Origin: Cytophagaceae bacterium
GTDB taxonomy: Bacteria > Bacteroidota > Bacteroidia > Cytophagales > UBA9547
DNA length: 64,000 bases
Direction of reading: 5' to 3'
Assembly (NCBI GenBank): GCA_027488865.1
Contig: JAIYAU010000024.1
Coordinates: 1 to 64,000, forward strand
A program made the translations under genes and the position numbers. How positions within the stretch are numbered: the first letter of the stretch is position 1; the number at the start of each line of letters is the position of its first letter. This document shows, piece after piece, positions 5,030-38,264 of the stretch. The notes under the pieces were generated by a model that saw only the letters and a program-made list of their open reading frames with translations, was not told the DNA's origin and searched no databases.

Positions 5030-7744
5030 TTATTTGCCAATAAAAACAAATGGTGCCCAATAATATGGTGCGGCGTATTTGGAATTTGAAATGGTCTTTA
5101 AACGAGCCTTTTTTAATGCTTCTTCAGGATTAAGTCCTTTTAATATTTCTTGATAAAAACTTACCATTAGTAATTTTGTACTAAGGTCGTCTACGCTCCA
5201 ATAGGAAACCACAATATTTTCTGCTCCCGCAAAACGCAAAGCACGGCTCAGTCCAATTACTCCTTCTCCTTTGCTTACTTTACCAAGTCCTGTTTGGCAT
5301 GCCGAAAGCACAATAAGTTTTGCCCCTAAGCTTAAGCCATAAATTTCAGAGGCATATAAAACTTGTTGTTCTGGGTCGGTATTTGGATATAAATAAATTC
5401 GAGAAAGTTCAGGTTGCTCCATATCTACAATACCATGAGTGGCCAAGTGAATAATAGAATACATTCCTAATTGATTGGACCGCATCACCAATTCATTTGC
5501 CTCTTTCTCTTTTAGTAATAAATGCTGTATTCCCGCATTAGCAAAAAGTGAATCGATTTCTTGTACTTCTTTGCGACTACCTTCCAGCACGCTCATGTCT
5601 TTAAAATTAATAGGAGCAAGAAGTGCAATACCCTTGTTAAAAGCAAAGGATCTATTATCAGCAGCCCACAAGGTGGCAGAAAACGCATAACTTGTACTTA
5701 CCATCTTACATAAGTAAGGAAGACTCTGCCATGTTGGTTCTGCACCTTTTTTAGGAGCATTTGTAAATAATGCCTCAAATGGTGTAAGGCTTAATTTTCC
5801 ATCAGGGATTAGTATTATCCTTTTTGATGTTAAAGCCATATTCGGTATTAGTATTTTACTTAAGATTCCTGCATATTTTACATAAGTTTTGATAACCTGA
5901 AAGGAAATTGAGTTATGAAAACCAGCCAATTGTTTATTTAATGCAATTATATCAATGTCATGCGTATAAACTTTATATTTATTTTTACTTATTGCAAAGA
6001 CGTATAGGCGTTGATTCGTTTCTGAAATAAAATAAGACAATAGCACTTCTTCATTTGTCATGGATGATTGTAATTCCTTAACAGTTATGACAGCCATTTG
6101 GTATTTAAGTCGATAATATTCTGGGTATTTTTTTTCAAATGCTTGTATTAGCTGATTGTATTCTTGTTGTTTATGTAGTAGATCAATCCTTACGTTACCT
6201 TCTTTTTTATTACCACTAAGTTGAGCCAACTTTTGTTCCAAAAATCCAATTTCACTTTTCAGATTCAATTCTTTTTGAATTAAACTATCTGGAATTCCTG
6301 CAAAACTTTTTGCTTTTGTATCAGAAATTGCTTCTAATAAAACGGCACCTTTGGTTTTTTCAGCAAAAATAAATGCCTTTTCTGCATAAAAATTCGGTTT
6401 GGTACTTACTTCACTGATGCTCATACAAAGGTGTATGCCAATTTCATAAACTTCAGCAGTTTGCTGTCCTAAGCGAAGTTTGTCTTTTTTCGTAGTTTTG
6501 ATTTTACGTAACTCCGATATTAATGTATCAATCCCTTCACACAAGGCAAGGGCACTTTTAAGATCATTCAATTTCAAAGTTTTTTGAAAATGTTTGTTCT
6601 GTAGTAGTCTACAGTGAACCAGCATGATCTCTAGCTGTCTATCTTTGCTAATCGCCGTTCGAAAGTTTGGATAGAGTATTTCTTGATCGGTCGTGTAGGA
6701 ATCATGATTTGAGGCATACGCTTTTTTAACTTGAACTATGGCCTCTTTAAAATTTGTTTGTTTTAGTGCTAGATTTGCCAGCGCTGAACATACACCAGAT
6801 ACTTCGGGATGCTTTGATCCGTAGGTACTTGTATAAATGGTTAGTGCGGCAAGGTATTGTGCTTTCGCACCCTCTAAATCAAGTTTGTTTTCAAGCACAC
6901 TGGCCATACTTAATAATGCAAAACCAACATTAGGATGATTTGCGCCTAGGCCTTCTTCCCATATTTGTTTTGATTTTTGCATTTTTATCATTGCAGTATC
7001 GTATTTCCCTTGGCTTTTGTAAGCTAATCCTAAATTCATATAAGCAGCGGCCAGTGAAGGATGCTGAGAAGGATATACTTTTTCTAAAATATTTAATCCT
7101 AGATTATAATATTCAAGGGACTTTTTTAGGTCACTTTCTTGCCAAGCCAGGCCTAGATTGGTATAACTACCAGCTACGGAAGCGTGATTTTTGCCATAAA
7201 GGGTCATTCGTTCACTTAAGGCTTTATTCAAATAGCCTAAGGCTACCTCGGTATTTCCATTTAACAAATAACATAGACCTAAGTTGTTCTGGATATCAGC
7301 TGAGAGGGTTAATAATGGTTTTTTAGATTGTTGGTAAACAGTTAAAGCATTTTCTAAAACTTGTTCTGCTATGTCAATCCTGCCTTCTTGTAGGCGAATC
7401 AAACCATCACCATTGAGTACAGCAGCTTTTTGCAAAGGCTTTTTTTCTTCACAAATGGAATAATTCTCTTTGTTTAGTAATAAAGCTCCTTTTAAATCTC
7501 CTTGCCTCGCTAGGCATTCTGCACCACGAATGCGACAATCTAAAAAGCGTTGTGAATCTATTCCCTTAAAATAAGAAGCTGCTTTACTAAAACAATCATA
7601 ACTTTTTGAGTAGTTGCCGGCATCATAAGTAGAGTCACCCACAGAATACAAACGCAATCCCAAGTTTGATTGGGCGCTTACCAAGCTACACCAAAGGAAT
7701 AAGCTAAAATATAAAACTGAATAAAACTTAGAATCGGAATTCAT
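5030..7744 (-). CDS. Secreted TPR-CHAT domain protein (caspase-like)
   Basis: Signal peptide, multiple TPRs, C-terminal CHAT with IIHLATHG (His) and LSACQTGLG (Cys) motifs, ending YYWAPFVFIG. Confidence 0.92.
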   Translation of the reverse strand: MNSDSKFYSVLYFSLFLWCSLVSAQSNLGLRLYSVGDSTYDAGNYSKSYDCFSKAASYFKGIDSQRFLDCRIRGAECLARQGDLKGALLLNKENYSICEEKKPLQKAAVLNGDGLIRLQEGRIDIAEQVLENALTVYQQSKKPLLTLSADIQNNLGLCYLLNGNTEVALGYLNKALSERMTLYGKNHASVAGSYTNLGLAWQESDLKKSLEYYNLGLNILEKVYPSQHPSLAAAYMNLGLAYKSQGKYDTAMIKMQKSKQIWEEGLGANHPNVGFALLSMASVLENKLDLEGAKAQYLAALTIYTSTYGSKHPEVSGVCSALANLALKQTNFKEAIVQVKKAYASNHDSYTTDQEILYPNFRTAISKDRQLEIMLVHCRLLQNKHFQKTLKLNDLKSALALCEGIDTLISELRKIKTTKKDKLRLGQQTAEVYEIGIHLCMSISEVSTKPNFYAEKAFIFAEKTKGAVLLEAISDTKAKSFAGIPDSLIQKELNLKSEIGFLEQKLAQLSGNKKEGNVRIDLLHKQQEYNQLIQAFEKKYPEYYRLKYQMAVITVKELQSSMTNEEVLLSYFISETNQRLYVFAISKNKYKVYTHDIDIIALNKQLAGFHNSISFQVIKTYVKYAGILSKILIPNMALTSKRIILIPDGKLSLTPFEALFTNAPKKGAEPTWQSLPYLCKMVSTSYAFSATLWAADNRSFAFNKGIALLAPINFKDMSVLEGSRKEVQEIDSLFANAGIQHLLLKEKEANELVMRSNQLGMYSIIHLATHGIVDMEQPELSRIYLYPNTDPEQQVLYASEIYGLSLGAKLIVLSACQTGLGKVSKGEGVIGLSRALRFAGAENIVVSYWSVDDLSTKLLMVSFYQEILKGLNPEEALKKARLKTISNSKYAAPYYWAPFVFIGK

Positions 7745-25632: not shown

Positions 25633-27498
25633 ATGTTTAAAGAATATGATGTAATTGTGGTGGGTGCTGGGCATGCTGGATGTGAGGCCGCGGCCGCAGC
25701 TGCTAACATGGGATGTAGTACGCTACTTATTACTATGGACATGACCAAAATGGGCCAAATGTCATGTAACCCTGCTATGGGGGGAGTAGCCAAAGGTCAA
25801 ATAGTTCGTGAAATCGATGCCTTGGGTGGGTTATCTGGGATTATAACAGATAAAACCTCCTTGCAGTTTAGGATGTTGAATAGCTCCAAAGGGCCGGCTA
25901 TGTGGAGTCCAAGAGCCCAATGTGACCGTTGGAAATTTACTGAGGAATGGCGAATTGCCCTAGAAAACATACCTAAGCTTGATTTTTGGCAAGAAATGGT
26001 GACAGGTATATTGGTAAAAGACCAAAAGGTGAACGGAATTCGAACAGCCATGGGGCTTGAAATACAAAGTAAATCCGTAGTCCTAACAAATGGTACATTT
26101 CTAAATGGAATAATACATATAGGCGAAAAAAACTTTTCGGGTGGACGTACAGGAGAAAAAGCAGCTAAAGGTATAACTGAACAACTTGTAAGTTTAGGTT
26201 TTGAGTCGGGTAGAATGAAAACGGGTACACCTGCACGACTTGATGGTCGGAGTATTAACTACAACATCGTTGAGGAGCAACAAGGAGATCAGTTTCCACA
26301 AAAATTCTCCTATAGCAACGAAACTTTTCCTATCCAAAAGCAACTAAGCTGCCACATAACATATACCAACACCGAGGTTCATGAGATTTTGAAAACTGGT
26401 TTTGAAAAATCCCCAATGTTCCAAGGACGTATAAAAGGTCTTGGGCCGCGATACTGTCCCTCCATTGAAGACAAAATAAATAGATTTGCTGAACGAGAAC
26501 GTCATCAGCTATTTATAGAACCAGAAGGCTGGAACACCTGCGAAGTTTATCTCAATGGGTTTTCTTCATCTTTACCAGAAGAAATTCAGCTTAAAGCATT
26601 GCAGAAAATCCAAGGGCTTGAAAACGTTAAAATGTTTAGACCTGGTTATGCCATTGAATATGATTATTTTCCTCCCACACAACTTAGTCTAACACTTGAG
26701 ACAAAACTTGTATCTGGTCTCTTTTTTGCAGGCCAAATTAATGGTACCACAGGATATGAAGAAGCAGCAGGCCAAGGCCTAATGGCTGGAATAAATGCAG
26801 CTAGAAAAGCACAGGAGAAAGATGCTTTGATATTGCAAAGAGATGAAGCATATATTGGTGTGCTAATTGATGATCTCATAAACAAAGGCACCGAAGAACC
26901 CTATCGTATGTTTACTTCCCGTGCTGAATATAGAATTCTCTTACGCCAAGATAACGCAGACATTAGGCTTACACAAAAAGGCTATGACATAGGTCTTGCT
27001 TCTGAGGAAAGGTTTTTAAACATGAAACTAAAGGAGAAAGAATCACAGGAAATTTACAAATGGCTTGCTACTACCAAAACGGAATCATTTGAGGTCAATG
27101 AGATGTTATCGCAACTAGGTTCAGCAGAGATTAAGGAAAAAACAACTTTAATTCAGCTATTAAGAAGACCCGATATTGGCATTAACAATTTCAGAGGTAT
27201 CAACTCCGATATTGATAATTATATCAATTCCAAAGACGCCTTACATTTGGAACAAGCTGAAATCCTTATTAAATATGAAAGCTATATTGATAAAGAACGA
27301 TCAATGGCTGAAAAAATTAAGTCATTAGAAAATGTTAAAATTCCAATTACAATTAACTATGATGAGATCTCTGCTCTGTCAAATGAAGCAAAAGATAAAT
27401 TCAAAAAAATAAAACCACTTAGTCTAGGCCAAGCATCCAGAATAAGTGGAATTTCTCCATCAGACGTATCAATATTAATGATTCAACTTAACAAATAA
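25633..27498 (+). CDS. mnmG: tRNA uridine-5-carboxymethylaminomethyl(34) synthesis enzyme MnmG (GidA)
   Basis: [69 protein letters not shown]. Confidence 0.98.
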
Positions 27499-28374
27499 AT
27501 GTTTGAAAAAATAGACATCTGCCCCGTTTGCGGCAACAATGAGTTTACAAACTCTCTTATTTGTAACGACCACACCGTAACAAATGAGAAGTTTGCCCTA
27601 ATTAAGTGCAAATCATGTGGTTTTTTGCTCACTTCACCGAGACCAACGAAGGAGAACATTGGCAAATACTATAAGTCTGATACCTATATTTCACATTCTG
27701 ATACAAACAAGGGAATAATAAACCAGATTTATCACGTAGTACGGAAAATATCACTTCGCAATAAGTTTAAGCTAATTAAGCAAAAGGAGAATAAAAGTAC
27801 CATTCTCGACTTCGGTACAGGTACTGGTTACTTTGTTAACTACTGTAACGAACGTGGTCAATTAGCTGAAGGACTAGAAATTGATGACGCGGCAAGAGCT
27901 ATAGCTTCTAAAAATGGCGCTAAAATCTATTCTTCTTTAAATGAAATAAAAGATAAAAAATACCGTGTAATCACCGCGTGGCACGTACTAGAGCATATTC
28001 ATGATCTTGACCAAACAATATCTTCAATGAAAAAACTTTTGGAAAAAAAAGGAAGATTAGTTTTTGCAGTTCCTAATTGTAACTCGTATGATGCACAACA
28101 CTACAAGGAATTCTGGGCTGGTTATGATGTGCCAAGACACCTTTACCACTTTACACCACAAACCATGAAAATCTTATGTAAAAAACATAACCTCAAAATT
28201 AAGGATATTCTGCCTATGAAGTTTGATGCATTTTATGTGTCAATGTTAAGTGAGAAATACAAGAATGGTAAGACTAACTTTTTAAGGGCACTTCTTCTTG
28301 GGCTCAAATCGAATAGACAAGCAGCTTTAAATAATGAGTACTCAAGTCTAATTTATGTTATCAAAGTAAAATAG
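27499..28374 (+). CDS. Class I SAM-dependent methyltransferase with N-terminal zinc ribbon
   Basis: CPVCGN..CKSCGFLLTSPRP; ILDFGTGTGYFV; ITAWHVLEHIHD. Confidence 0.88.
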   Translation: MFEKIDICPVCGNNEFTNSLICNDHTVTNEKFALIKCKSCGFLLTSPRPTKENIGKYYKSDTYISHSDTNKGIINQIYHVVRKISLRNKFKLIKQKENKSTILDFGTGTGYFVNYCNERGQLAEGLEIDDAARAIASKNGAKIYSSLNEIKDKKYRVITAWHVLEHIHDLDQTISSMKKLLEKKGRLVFAVPNCNSYDAQHYKEFWAGYDVPRHLYHFTPQTMKILCKKHNLKIKDILPMKFDAFYVSMLSEKYKNGKTNFLRALLLGLKSNRQAALNNEYSSLIYVIKVK

Positions 28375-28379
28375 TAAGC

Positions 28380-29951
28380 ATGTTAATCAAGTGGTTATCC
28401 GGTTTTTCAATAATTTTTTCAATACTAGTTTTTAGTCGATGTGCCAATATCAGTGCTCCTGGTGGAGGCCCATTAGATACACTTAAACCTACATTAGTAA
28501 GGTCAATTCCTAAGAATAATGAAACCAATTTTAATAGTTCTGTCTTAATATTTGAAGTGTCCGAACCTATCGATGCCGGACAACTCGCTAAAGAAATACA
28601 AATTCAACCGCCACTAGAAGAAGAGCCAACAATTGAAGCGGATCGAAAAAAAATAGTTGTTAAACTTAAAAAGCAGCTTAGATCAAACACCACCTATAAT
28701 CTATACTTTAGAAATGGTATAAAAGACAAAACCGAAGGAAATATACTTAAAAGTAATAGAATTAGATTTTCAACAGGAGCAAACCTAGACTCAATACGAG
28801 TAGAAGGACGCATAATTAATCCCTTAGACAATAAACCCTCTACAAACATACTAGTTGGAATATTTTTAATCAATGATACTATTACTCCGTATAATACTAA
28901 ACCTGAGTATTATAATTATACCAACAAGGAAGGGGTCTACACCATTAATGATATAAAGGCAGGCACTTATAAACTATTGGCTTTTAATGACTTAAATAAA
29001 AATCTTCTTTTAAACTTAAACGAGCCGTTGGGTTTTATTGATACAACGTTATCCATTAGTTCTAATTTAAGTCTAAAAAACCTAAGTTTAACATTTGCCA
29101 AAACTGATTCTCTTAAAATATCGAGTACCAAATCTAAGAACGGTATTTTCGAGATACGTCTTAACAAATCACCAAGAACCGCAGTATTAGAAAGCAAACC
29201 TCAGTTGAAATATTTAGTAAGCGCAAACGTTATAAGAGTATTTCCTAATACTCGTATCGACAGTTTACAAGTTGAATTAACAGTGGAAGATTCGTTAGGA
29301 ACAAAGTTAAAAAAATCAATTACCGCAAATTTTGATAAAGAAAGATTTAAAAATAAAAATTTCATATCTAATAAAAACCCTTACCGTAAATTAACTTCCA
29401 AAGGAGGGAATGTAGTTATAACAACAGAGACACCAATTGAAACTATATTAAAAGATACAATTCTATTAAAGCCCGATAACAATAAATGGGTGAATTCTAA
29501 ATTTACTCTCTCCAAAAACGGAGACTCGCTTTACATAAAATACCCTCAATTTCAAGATTCACTGTTTATCAAAATTCCAGCAGGCTTTTGTGTATCAGCT
29601 TTAGGAGATACCTCAAGTCAATTTAAAGATAAATTTGAAATATTTAAAGAAGAAGACGTAAGTCTCATAGCTGGAAGTATTAATACGAAGTATAAAAATT
29701 ATATTTTTGAATTACTAACGAAGGACAATAATGTAGTAATAAGATTAATAAATCCGAAAAGTTACGAAATTCCAAATCTATCTCCCGGTGAATATAGAAT
29801 AAGAATTATTGAAGATTTAAATAATAACGGTTTTTGGGATGTAGGTAATTATCGAACAAATATACCTGCTGAAAAAATATACCATCATCCCGCACCAATT
29901 ATTATTAAAGCCAATTGGGAACTACGAGATGTAAATATTACCACAGAATAA
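28380..29951 (+). CDS. Ig-like (SbsA-type/Big_5) domain lipoprotein
   Basis: Lipobox-like SRC; ANISAPGGGPLDTLKPTLVRSIPKNNETNFNSSVLIFEVSEPI. Confidence 0.75.
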   Translation: MLIKWLSGFSIIFSILVFSRCANISAPGGGPLDTLKPTLVRSIPKNNETNFNSSVLIFEVSEPIDAGQLAKEIQIQPPLEEEPTIEADRKKIVVKLKKQLRSNTTYNLYFRNGIKDKTEGNILKSNRIRFSTGANLDSIRVEGRIINPLDNKPSTNILVGIFLINDTITPYNTKPEYYNYTNKEGVYTINDIKAGTYKLLAFNDLNKNLLLNLNEPLGFIDTTLSISSNLSLKNLSLTFAKTDSLKISSTKSKNGIFEIRLNKSPRTAVLESKPQLKYLVSANVIRVFPNTRIDSLQVELTVEDSLGTKLKKSITANFDKERFKNKNFISNKNPYRKLTSKGGNVVITTETPIETILKDTILLKPDNNKWVNSKFTLSKNGDSLYIKYPQFQDSLFIKIPAGFCVSALGDTSSQFKDKFEIFKEEDVSLIAGSINTKYKNYIFELLTKDNNVVIRLINPKSYEIPNLSPGEYRIRIIEDLNNNGFWDVGNYRTNIPAEKIYHHPAPIIIKANWELRDVNITTE

Positions 29952-30334
29952 ACTCATGCTGTTTAATAACTCGTGTATAACTCTGTGAGAAAGTGTTAGC
30001 ATAACTATATTAAAATTTCAGGAGTAATCTATATGTGGATAACAATAGAAAAACCGAGATTTATTCTTAATTTACCCACAAAAAGTTATTAATAACACTA
30101 GGTATGAAAAGTGTTTAAAACTTTGGCTATTTTAATAAATACTTATAAATAAACATGTTATAAGTTGATAAACTGTTAATATCTTAAAAAAAATTAGTAT
30201 TTATTAACAAATAAAAAATCCAAATGTGAATTATAATAGTTTTCAACTTATCCACAGACCTAATAATAATGATAATAATTTGAATTACATTTTATATTAA
30301 TATTATAAACTGTGGATAACCTCAAGCATACGTC
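29952..30334. other. Candidate chromosomal replication origin (oriC)
   Basis: AT-rich intergenic region with DnaA boxes TTATCCACA (perfect) at 30034-30042 (-), 30248-30256 (+), 30311-30319 (-); near-matches 29972-29980 (-) and 30072-30080 (+). Confidence 0.65.
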
Positions 30335-32137
30335 ATGAAGTATATAATTGTATTTTTAATCATTTTATTTCAAAAAATTTCTTTTGCGCAGCCCGGAATG
30401 CTCCAGCTCGCTAATGAATATTATTCATCTGGCGAATATAAAAAGGCTAAAGTTGTTTATGAAGATTTGTTAAAAGACGAATCTAAAATGGATTTCATTT
30501 ATAACAATTATTTGCAAACACTATATAACCTAAAAGAACTTGAACTTGCTCAAAAATTTTTAAAGAAGACAGTTAAGAAATATCCCAATTATGTTATTTA
30601 TAAACTTGACTTGATCGATTGTATAGAAAAAGGAGCTCACCCTGAAGATGCCGAAAAGGTAAAAAATAAATATGCAATTGAAATTAGTAGAGATAAGAAT
30701 TCTTTGTTATTGGCTTATGAATATTTAATGGGTCAGCGTAAATATGCTTATGCAGAAACCTTGTTGTTAAAAGCTCGGGACTATGAAAGAGATCAAGTAG
30801 CATATAGTACACAACTTGCAGAAATTTATCAAAATTTAGCCCAAAAGGATAAGATGTTTGATGAAATGCTCAATCAGCTCTTTGCTGAACCTAACGTGGA
30901 GCGGATAAAGTCAAGTTTTCAAAATTTAATTCAAACCGAAGAAGATTTTAACACTTTTGAAGGTCTCTTACTTGCCAAGGTAGAACAGAATCCAGAAAAT
31001 GACAATTTGAATGAGGTATTAATATGGGCTTATGTTCAACAGAAAGATTTTAATAGTGCGTTTATTTATGCAAAAGCAATAGATAATAGAAATAAATTGC
31101 AAGGATTTCAATTACTAGATCTAGCTAAAATAGCTATGGAAAACAAGGCTTATGATGCAGTAATAAAAATGAGTGATTACGTAAAATCTAAGTATAAAGG
31201 TATAGGTACCTATTTTCAGTTTAAAATGATGGGAACTAAGGCAAAAGAGGAATTAATAAAAAACACCTACCCGATTCCATCATCAAAAATTTGGGAGTTA
31301 ATTAATGAATATAAATCACTTTGTGTTGAGCAACCCAATTCCGCTCAATGTGCTGAGGCTATTAGGAGTCAAGCTTTGTTGTATGCTTTTCAACTAGGAA
31401 AAATTGATACAGCAATAATACAATTACAAGAATTAACAAAATATCCTTATTTTGATCAGGCTTTTAAAGATAAATGCAAGCTTGATTTGGGTGATTTTTA
31501 TATTCTAAAAGAAGAATATTGGGAGGCGTCACTTATTTATTCTCAAGTAGAAAAAAGCCAAAAGGATTCACCGCTCGCTTATGAAGCGAAATTAAGAAAT
31601 GGTAAATTGTTTTATTATAAAGGAGAGTTTGAATTAGCCAAGGAGCAACTGGATGTTTTAAAATTAGCTACTTCAAGAGAAATAGCCAATGATGCTATGG
31701 ATAAAAGTATATTTATACAAGATAATTTAGGAGAAGATACCTTGGGAACAGAGTTAAGTAAAATCACCTCAATTGAACTTTTCATTTTTCAGCAAAAATA
31801 TCAAGAGGCGATTGATGCTTATATATCATTTTTGACCACCTATGCCTTAAGCACTTTAAGAGACGACGCTTTTTATGGTCTAGCTAAATTATATATAAAA
31901 ATGGGTAAATATAACGAAGCGGTTGATCAGCTCATCAAAATTTTGACTTTGCATAAAAATGAAATATTAGCTGATGATGCCCAGTTTTTGCTTGCTACCT
32001 TATACGAGGAAAAGTTACGTAACAACGAAAAAGCTATGAATGAATATAATGTAATCTTGCTTGAGTATACAGGTAGTATCTACCAAGCAGAGGCAAGAAA
32101 AAGATATAGATTTTTGAGAGGGGATAAACTTAACTAA
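30335..32137 (+). CDS. Tetratricopeptide repeat protein, secreted
   Basis: Signal peptide, multiple TPRs. Confidence 0.85.
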   Translation: MKYIIVFLIILFQKISFAQPGMLQLANEYYSSGEYKKAKVVYEDLLKDESKMDFIYNNYLQTLYNLKELELAQKFLKKTVKKYPNYVIYKLDLIDCIEKGAHPEDAEKVKNKYAIEISRDKNSLLLAYEYLMGQRKYAYAETLLLKARDYERDQVAYSTQLAEIYQNLAQKDKMFDEMLNQLFAEPNVERIKSSFQNLIQTEEDFNTFEGLLLAKVEQNPENDNLNEVLIWAYVQQKDFNSAFIYAKAIDNRNKLQGFQLLDLAKIAMENKAYDAVIKMSDYVKSKYKGIGTYFQFKMMGTKAKEELIKNTYPIPSSKIWELINEYKSLCVEQPNSAQCAEAIRSQALLYAFQLGKIDTAIIQLQELTKYPYFDQAFKDKCKLDLGDFYILKEEYWEASLIYSQVEKSQKDSPLAYEAKLRNGKLFYYKGEFELAKEQLDVLKLATSREIANDAMDKSIFIQDNLGEDTLGTELSKITSIELFIFQQKYQEAIDAYISFLTTYALSTLRDDAFYGLAKLYIKMGKYNEAVDQLIKILTLHKNEILADDAQFLLATLYEEKLRNNEKAMNEYNVILLEYTGSIYQAEARKRYRFLRGDKLN

Positions 32138-32139
32138 TA

Positions 32140-32634
32140 ATGGACACAAATTTTAACACTTCGGCGAAGATTCATCAAAATGTAGAAACACTTTTACCGA
32201 TGGTTGAGCAATGGAAAAATGAAGGGAATGAAGTAGTTTTTACAAACGGATGTTTTGATATAGTACACTTGGGTCATATAGATTACTTAGAAAAATCAAG
32301 AAATTTGGGGGATAAGCTCATAGTGGCCATCAATACTGATGCATCTGTCCAAAGAAATAAGGGCCTGTCAAGACCAATTATTGATCAAATGTCTAGGTCT
32401 CATTTGATGGCAGCCTTAGCCTTTGTAGATGCCGTGGTTATGTTCGATGAAGAAACACCATTGAACTTAATATCGAAACTAATTCCAGATATTTTGGTAA
32501 AAGGCAAAGACTACACTATTGATAAGATTGTTGGTGCCGAGATAGTGATAGATAATGGAGGTAAAGTAGAAACAATTGAACTAGTGCAGGGATATTCTAC
32601 AAGTAACTTTGTCAATAAAATTAAAAATGAATAA
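32140..32634 (+). CDS. rfaE2: D-glycero-beta-D-manno-heptose 1-phosphate adenylyltransferase-like (RfaE domain II)
   Basis: VFTNGCFDIVHLGHIDYLEKSR; NTDASVQRNKG.RPI. Confidence 0.88.
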   Translation: MDTNFNTSAKIHQNVETLLPMVEQWKNEGNEVVFTNGCFDIVHLGHIDYLEKSRNLGDKLIVAINTDASVQRNKGLSRPIIDQMSRSHLMAALAFVDAVVMFDEETPLNLISKLIPDILVKGKDYTIDKIVGAEIVIDNGGKVETIELVQGYSTSNFVNKIKNE

Positions 32635-36407: not shown

Positions 36408-38264
36408 TTGAGATTTTTACGGTTAATAATTCTAAAACTAGCGTTAGTTAGCAATTTTCAAGCCTTTGCTGAAAAAGAGGTAATAATTAACCAGCAAGAA
36501 AGTCAATACATTACAAGTGATGATTTTTCGATTTTAGAAGATTCCAACAACGCCTTCAATGTTCAATACCTCGCGTTACTTCCCAGAAATGCGTTTAATT
36601 TTGAGGTTGCTAACTTTAAAAAAAATCATCACCAACACCTATGGCTAAGGCTTGACATAAATAATAAATTAGCCACCAACGATCGTTGGTTGTTAGAAAT
36701 TTATAACCAAAGAGCCAATGAATTAGAACTTTATGTGTTTAACGACCAAGGTAAATATTACAGCCTAGATACAATTGGTTCGGACATTCCATTTTATAAA
36801 CGTTCTTTAATAAATCGTTTTCCACTATTTGAGATACCTATTCGCCCTGGTACTAATGTGATTTTTATTAAATACTATTCCAAGCACCACTTAGGCCTAA
36901 ATGCCCAAATTTTAACGGCTAAAAGCTACATCAATAGCGCAAACATTTACCACTTTTTAATTGGCGGCTTTTATTTTGTGCTACTTCTCTTGATTTTGTA
37001 TAATTTACTTTTCTTTATCTCTACCAGAGATCAATTGTATTTATATTATTGCTTTTTCGTGTTTTCTGCTGGGTTAGATTGCCTTCGTGTAGATCAAATG
37101 GGGTTTGCGCTGTTGTGGCCAGGTTTTCCACAATTTAATTATTATGTAGACGAATATGCTAGAACATTATTTGTTTTCGCACTCGTTACCTATGCCAGCA
37201 ACTTTTTGCAAATAAGTAAACTAAGTGTGAAACTTTCTTACTGGATTAAATCCGTTCTTGTTGTGTATACTGTCCAGCAAATAGTTTTTAGCGAGGTTTT
37301 TCCAAGTTTTGAGGCTGCCTTACCCATTAGTACTGTGCTACTTTTTATACTTATAGGCAGTATTATGTATGCTGCAATACTTAAAAGAAAGAGCGCGCAA
37401 CAATCTGTTAATTTATTTTTGATTGGCTACTCCTCTATTTCTTTGGGAGTAATTGTAACTTATTTATTTTATAATGGCATTATCCCCGGGCATCAGGTAG
37501 TATATTTTATCTTGTTTTATGGAATTAGCATCGATACTGTAATGTTTTCATTTGCCTTAAGTGCGCGGCTAAAACAAGAACGGATTACAAAAGAATTGGC
37601 ATTAAAGGCAGAAAATATTGCAAATCAAAAGGTGATCATAGAAATGCAAAGAAATGAAACACTTTTGAACAAAGTTAATACTGAACTTGAAGCCAAAGTA
37701 CAAGAGCGAACCGTTGATTTAACCCTTGCCAATGCCAAACTGGCCGAGCAAGCACAAATAATAAATCAGTGGAACGCTCAATTGGATAAAACCAACTGGG
37801 AGTTAAATAAAGAGATCAAAAATTTAAATACAAACAGGGTTTTGTTTAAAAACCCTTCCTATAAAGAAGTTTTGGAGTCATTCCCTAGCAAATTAGAATG
37901 TTTAAAATTTATTGCAAACCTAAAGTGGCCAAACGGATTTGTATGTCGTAAATGTGGCAATGTCAAAGAAATTAAAACCGCGGAATTTTTGACCAAACGT
38001 TGCTCTAAATGTGGCACCATAGAATCTGTGACAGCTAACACCTTATTTCATAAACTAAAGTTTCCTATAGAAAAGGCTTTTTATCTAGTGTACATCGTTT
38101 ATGTGCAAAAAGAGCAATGCAATATAAGCGAAATATCAAGAGAGATAGACCTCAATTACAAAACCTGTCTTCACTTTAGTGAAAAAATAAGTGAGGCAAT
38201 TTTAATCCACCAAAAGGCTGGCAAAAAGCTAAAAAGTTGGGAAGAAATAGTTCTTGATAATTAA
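36408..38264 (+). CDS. 7TMR-DISM sensor fused via coiled coil to an IS1595-type transposase zinc-ribbon/HTH domain
   Basis: N-terminal DISMED2-like domain, seven TM region, coiled coil, then WPNGFVCRKCG...RCSKCGTIESVTANTLFHKLKFPIEKAFYLVYIVYVQKEQCNISEISREIDLNYKTCLHF. Confidence 0.85.
   Translation: MRFLRLIILKLALVSNFQAFAEKEVIINQQESQYITSDDFSILEDSNNAFNVQYLALLPRNAFNFEVANFKKNHHQHLWLRLDINNKLATNDRWLLEIYNQRANELELYVFNDQGKYYSLDTIGSDIPFYKRSLINRFPLFEIPIRPGTNVIFIKYYSKHHLGLNAQILTAKSYINSANIYHFLIGGFYFVLLLLILYNLLFFISTRDQLYLYYCFFVFSAGLDCLRVDQMGFALLWPGFPQFNYYVDEYARTLFVFALVTYASNFLQISKLSVKLSYWIKSVLVVYTVQQIVFSEVFPSFEAALPISTVLLFILIGSIMYAAILKRKSAQQSVNLFLIGYSSISLGVIVTYLFYNGIIPGHQVVYFILFYGISIDTVMFSFALSARLKQERITKELALKAENIANQKVIIEMQRNETLLNKVNTELEAKVQERTVDLTLANAKLAEQAQIINQWNAQLDKTNWELNKEIKNLNTNRVLFKNPSYKEVLESFPSKLECLKFIANLKWPNGFVCRKCGNVKEIKTAEFLTKRCSKCGTIESVTANTLFHKLKFPIEKAFYLVYIVYVQKEQCNISEISREIDLNYKTCLHFSEKISEAILIHQKAGKKLKSWEEIVLDN

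Follow-up and report, generated by a model that had tools for sequence, protein, structure and literature searches.

The 383-bp intergenic gap at positions 29952–30334 of the window (the whole stretch of 64,000 nucleotides that was analyzed) very probably serves, judging from its sequence, as the origin of chromosome replication (oriC) in this bacterium of the order Cytophagales. This reading is favored because three perfect DnaA boxes are clustered in the gap far beyond chance, and it is well supported mainly through comparison with relatives. An earlier note on this DNA had placed an oriC here, away from dnaA, and its proposal is supported by the conserved box cluster, by a DnaA-trio unwinding module adjoining one of the boxes, and by the position of the GC-skew minimum in a closed relative.

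DnaA boxes and gene context of the gap

The gap extends from the stop codon of the ORF at 28380–29951 to the ATG at 30335, and its GC content is 23.0%, compared with about 34% for the window as a whole. On its left lie mnmG (gidA; 25633–27498, + strand), a class I SAM methyltransferase gene (27499–28374, +) and a gene for a 523-aa Ig-like (Big_5) protein (28380–29951, +), whereas its right flank is a gene for a TPR-repeat protein of 600 aa (30335–32137, +). The mnmG, Big_5 and TPR genes are conserved neighbors of the site, and the methyltransferase gene is conserved beside it in many relatives. The gene that follows the TPR gene (32140–32634) matched the HldE adenylyltransferase domain (TIGR02199) above the cut-off, rather than pantetheine-phosphate adenylyltransferase.

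Three perfect copies of the DnaA box (TTATCCACA) are found at 30034–30042 (−), 30248–30256 (+) and 30311–30319 (−), and these are the only perfect copies in the window. A further box at 30072–30080 (+) has one mismatch (TTACCCACA), and a weak box-like site at 29972–29980 (−) has two mismatches to the consensus (CGTGTATAA; TTATACACG on the − strand). Immediately upstream of the second perfect box, TTTTCAACT (30240–30248, +; three mismatches) is a degenerate box that makes up the first half of a tandem pair, and relatives carry a better box at the matching position. The earlier note had described the very AT-rich 383-bp gap, the positions and strands of the three perfect boxes, and near-matches at 29972 and 30072, and each of these descriptions proved accurate; likewise, mnmG ends 2.5 kb from the gap, and dnaA is absent from the window, being located on a different contig (C62:21020). 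The note had also used the proximity of mnmG as an argument; the distance was given correctly, and such proximity is weak evidence when taken alone.

We compared the number of boxes with that expected by chance. At least one perfect box arose in 0.47% of 20,000 dinucleotide-shuffled versions of the gap, and none of these versions contained two or more. The genome, a draft of 4.33 Mb in 64 contigs, has 90 perfect boxes, and when 90 boxes are placed at random, the probability of a triplet within 286 bp somewhere in the genome is about 0.0015. The intergenic cluster thus exceeds chance. When all perfect boxes of the genome were considered, one other comparable triplet was found (441 bp, on contig C5); it lies inside an 815-aa ORF and was rejected as an origin. 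The oriC reading is weakened by the smaller number of boxes with at most one mismatch in the gap (4), compared with about 8 in the closest relative, G002.

A DnaA-trio module beside the second perfect box

The basal unwinding system (BUS) of bacterial origins has been searched for as a DnaA box followed by at least three (.A.) triplets within 16 bp (PMC8287927). The gap contains such a module at 30248–30280, a core that the earlier note had missed. The perfect box at 30248–30256 is its platform box; it is followed by a 3-bp spacer, GAC (30257–30259, +), and by seven DnaA-trio triplets (30260–30280, −), which are the likely first melted site. The + strand after the box reads GAC, then CTA ATA ATA ATG ATA ATA ATT; in other words, the trios read 3′ to 5′ on the − strand are GAT TAT TAT TAC TAT TAT TAA, all with a central A. 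The A/T-rich stretch between the last two boxes (30257–30310), a putative DNA unwinding region that directly adjoins them, has a GC content of 13%. The earlier note had suggested that A/T runs between the boxes serve as an unwinding element; the region is indeed A/T-rich, but the trio module is the more telling feature.

A perfect box together with seven trios arose in 0.025% of shuffles of the gap (n = 4,000). Within 120 kb of the same contig, the only other combination of at least six triplets with a box (at most one mismatch) is a site near 110 kb, with six triplets. A coding site on contig C11 also has seven triplets, with a spacer of 12 bp. A group of two boxes on C11 was rejected as an origin for its coding position. 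The module resembles the described BUS in its perfect platform box, its 3-bp spacer (limit, 16 bp), its first trio (3′-GAT-5′), its seven central-A triplets, the nearby A/T-rich DNA and the further boxes in both orientations. It differs in that the later trios are TAT or TAC rather than GAT, and in that its upstream tandem box is degenerate, that of relatives being good.

The DnaA protein encoded by this genome is canonical: it is full-length (TIGR00362, 499 bits), and its domain IV, aligned to solved DnaA, carries the box-reading motif DHTTV. From the boxes, the module, the conserved position and this canonical DnaA, all of which can be read in the sequences, we infer how binding, melting and firing would proceed. 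The perfect boxes at 30034, 30248 and 30311, together with the weaker sites, would serve as binding sites for DnaA, and a DnaA-ATP filament could then extend from the box at 30248 onto the trios at 30260–30280. The A/T-rich stretch would melt from 30260 up to 30310, and the helicase would be loaded at the opened region 30260–30310.

Conservation of the site among relatives

We located the densest 500-bp group of boxes with at most one mismatch around mnmG in 80 loci from named genomes, scoring two points for each perfect box and one for each 1-mismatch box, and regarded a score of 5 or more as strong. Strong clusters were found in 17 of the 80 loci, and all 17 were located 1.58–3.84 kb after the mnmG stop codon and contained 3–13 boxes. 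For example, there were 13 boxes in Runella, 11–12 in Dyadobacter, 9 in Aquirufa, 8 in the nearest relative, 7 in Chryseobacterium, 6–7 in Algoriphagus and Roseivirga, 5 in Fulvivirga, and 3–4 in one Pedobacter and one Mucilaginibacter, with others besides. With two scrambled control patterns, no score exceeded 4 except for one 7 at one locus. Most flavobacterial mnmG loci among the 80 had no box cluster after mnmG.

The conserved gene order is ybeY-mnmG-MTase-Big_5-[cluster]-TPR, with the methyltransferase absent in some genomes; in Cytophagales the cluster usually stands right in front of this TPR gene. Regions preceding the TPR gene were also taken from relatives and contain the same clusters, with as many as 17 boxes (at most one mismatch; L142), and several relatives have few or no boxes there; among these box-poor relatives, the TPR gene is no longer beside mnmG in G053, G038, G007, G009 and G004. 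Beside the start of the TPR gene, a core is seen again in different families (ATCCACAGcCtTAATAATA): a tandem box, then a short G/C tract and repeats resembling TAATAATA. The core reads ATCCACAGCCTTAATAATAATAG in G002, and variants are present in Roseivirga, Fulvivirga, G013, G054 and others. Among 148 genomes from the order, a strict form of the core pattern matched six, five of them at the mnmG–TPR site, and its reversed control had no matches; the strict pattern is specific and far from sensitive. A relaxed form (up to two mismatches) had a single match in the whole genome studied here, at 30251. Both the position and the boxes are thus conserved in relatives, with exceptions in some families and an apparent relocation in G044.

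Because the cluster immediately precedes the start of the TPR gene, and DnaA regulates promoters, we considered that the boxes could instead form a DnaA-responsive promoter or a titration site (datA/DARS-like) for the TPR gene. However, seven boxes follow the mnmG genes in Algoriphagus (L042), where no TPR gene was found further along, and in G053, whose TPR gene is about 36 kb distant, mnmG is still followed by two perfect boxes. This persistence of boxes without an adjoining TPR gene disfavors a simple promoter role, and neither a trio unwinding module nor a skew switch is expected of a titration site; we regard this alternative as extremely unlikely.

In G044, about 690 bp at 2.059 Mb (L189:8889-9576; C1:2058889-2059576) hold 12 perfect DnaA boxes. 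They adjoin a glutamate dehydrogenase gene, whereas mnmG, the TPR gene and dnaA are all located elsewhere, and this genome has no cluster at the mnmG–TPR site. Its origin has probably moved, and the location of the origin is therefore not immutable. For the wider group, the chances seem to us about even that much of the Cytophagales, perhaps with the Sphingobacteriales and some Flavobacteriia, share one ancestral dnaA-unlinked oriC location after the mnmG genes, with a conserved core of tandem box, GCC and TAATAATA, and that relocation as in G044 represents a documented origin move. A separate observation concerns the origin boxes of G046 (L133:1059-1380), nearly all of which are TTATTCACA rather than TTATCCACA, many of them spaced 11 or 21 bp apart. 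This is a lineage-specific shift of the DnaA-box consensus.

Replication polarity, other box groups and known origins

We examined GC skew in closed genomes of relatives; on the contig studied here, which belongs to a 64-contig draft, local skew over 120 kb showed no V at the site. Sampled skew in G037 (7.03 Mb) was positive over the first 2.8 Mb and, apart from one weak exception at 4.9 Mb, negative between 3.15 and 6.6 Mb. Finer sampling, in which one 20-kb sample over the locus includes 5,000 masked bases, placed the sign change between 6.612 and 6.652 Mb and the minimum at 6.638 Mb. In this genome, 10 boxes with no more than one mismatch precede the TPR gene within the mnmG-cluster-TPR locus (6.622–6.627 Mb), and the box cluster is at 6.624 Mb; in other words, the skew minimum lies 14 kb from the cluster. 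A skew minimum at the site was not seen in G013 at coarse sampling: its densest cluster of perfect boxes is at the mnmG–TPR locus (3.670 Mb), but the sign change and minimum are near 2.5 Mb. Rearrangement or sampling may account for this disagreement. G044 and G018 showed no clear skew, being too scrambled.

The G037 result also bears on the possibility of an oriC adjacent to dnaA, an arrangement known from many bacteria, with the gap being only a DnaA-binding regulatory locus. Three tandem boxes, 11–12 bp apart, are indeed present upstream of dnaA in the genome studied here (C62:20507-20538; L038:10507-10538). However, they are accompanied by no trio module and were not found in ten relatives, and dnaA of G037 (0.92 Mb) is 1.3 Mb from the skew minimum. 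We consider this the least probable of the alternatives weighed here, and the boxes, which are lineage-specific, probably reflect autoregulation of dnaA.

A third alternative is that this lineage initiates replication at a smaller group of boxes located 80 kb further to the right (C21:109895-110001; L036:5895-6001), the mnmG site being a relic or an auxiliary origin. Two perfect boxes and one near box are clustered there in 107 bp, in a 700-bp A/T-rich intergenic gap between a gene for a PKD/CHU_C surface protein and lptC/era; its run of six trio-like triplets, noted above, is weaker than that of the mnmG site. The apparently relocated origin of G044 is, moreover, about 13 kb from the era gene of that genome. 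On the other hand, the equivalent era-flanking position had no box pair in 27 relatives, the closest (G002) included, and the 110-kb site has fewer boxes than the mnmG site and lacks the conserved core. Such an origin is very unlikely, if the least improbable of the three alternatives, and the site is possibly one of DnaA titration or regulation.

The gap as the probable oriC can be compared with known origins. The oriC of E. coli and Yersinia is placed between gidA (mnmG) and mioC (PMC10225481). Like the gap, it is close to mnmG and away from dnaA; it differs in that mioC is absent here and the site comes after the 3′ end of mnmG-MTase-Big_5 and before the TPR gene. oriC-based replicating plasmids exist for Cytophaga hutchinsonii (PMC5288383, PMC5891637), which by its name belongs to the same order. 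Among the papers covered by a literature search, none was found that locates the Cytophagales oriC at this position. The element itself is of a well-known, ordinary oriC type, and the informative part is its conserved, dnaA-unlinked location, for which we claim no priority.

These results fix a probable replication start for an uncharacterized draft genome and suggest a rule for finding oriC in this group, namely after mnmG and before the TPR gene, with ATCCACAGcCtTAATAATA as the core; dnaA is here a misleading landmark. The rule could aid the building of replicating plasmids, the orientation of assemblies and the estimation of growth rates from coverage, and the group offers a natural case for the study of origin movement in bacteria.

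A search for RNA families gave no matches in the 64-kb window. Elsewhere in the window, the gene at 5030–7744 (−) encodes a TPR-CHAT protease-like protein, and that at 36408–38264 combines a 7TM diverse-intracellular-signalling protein with a match to an IS1595-type zinc ribbon, an unusual pairing.
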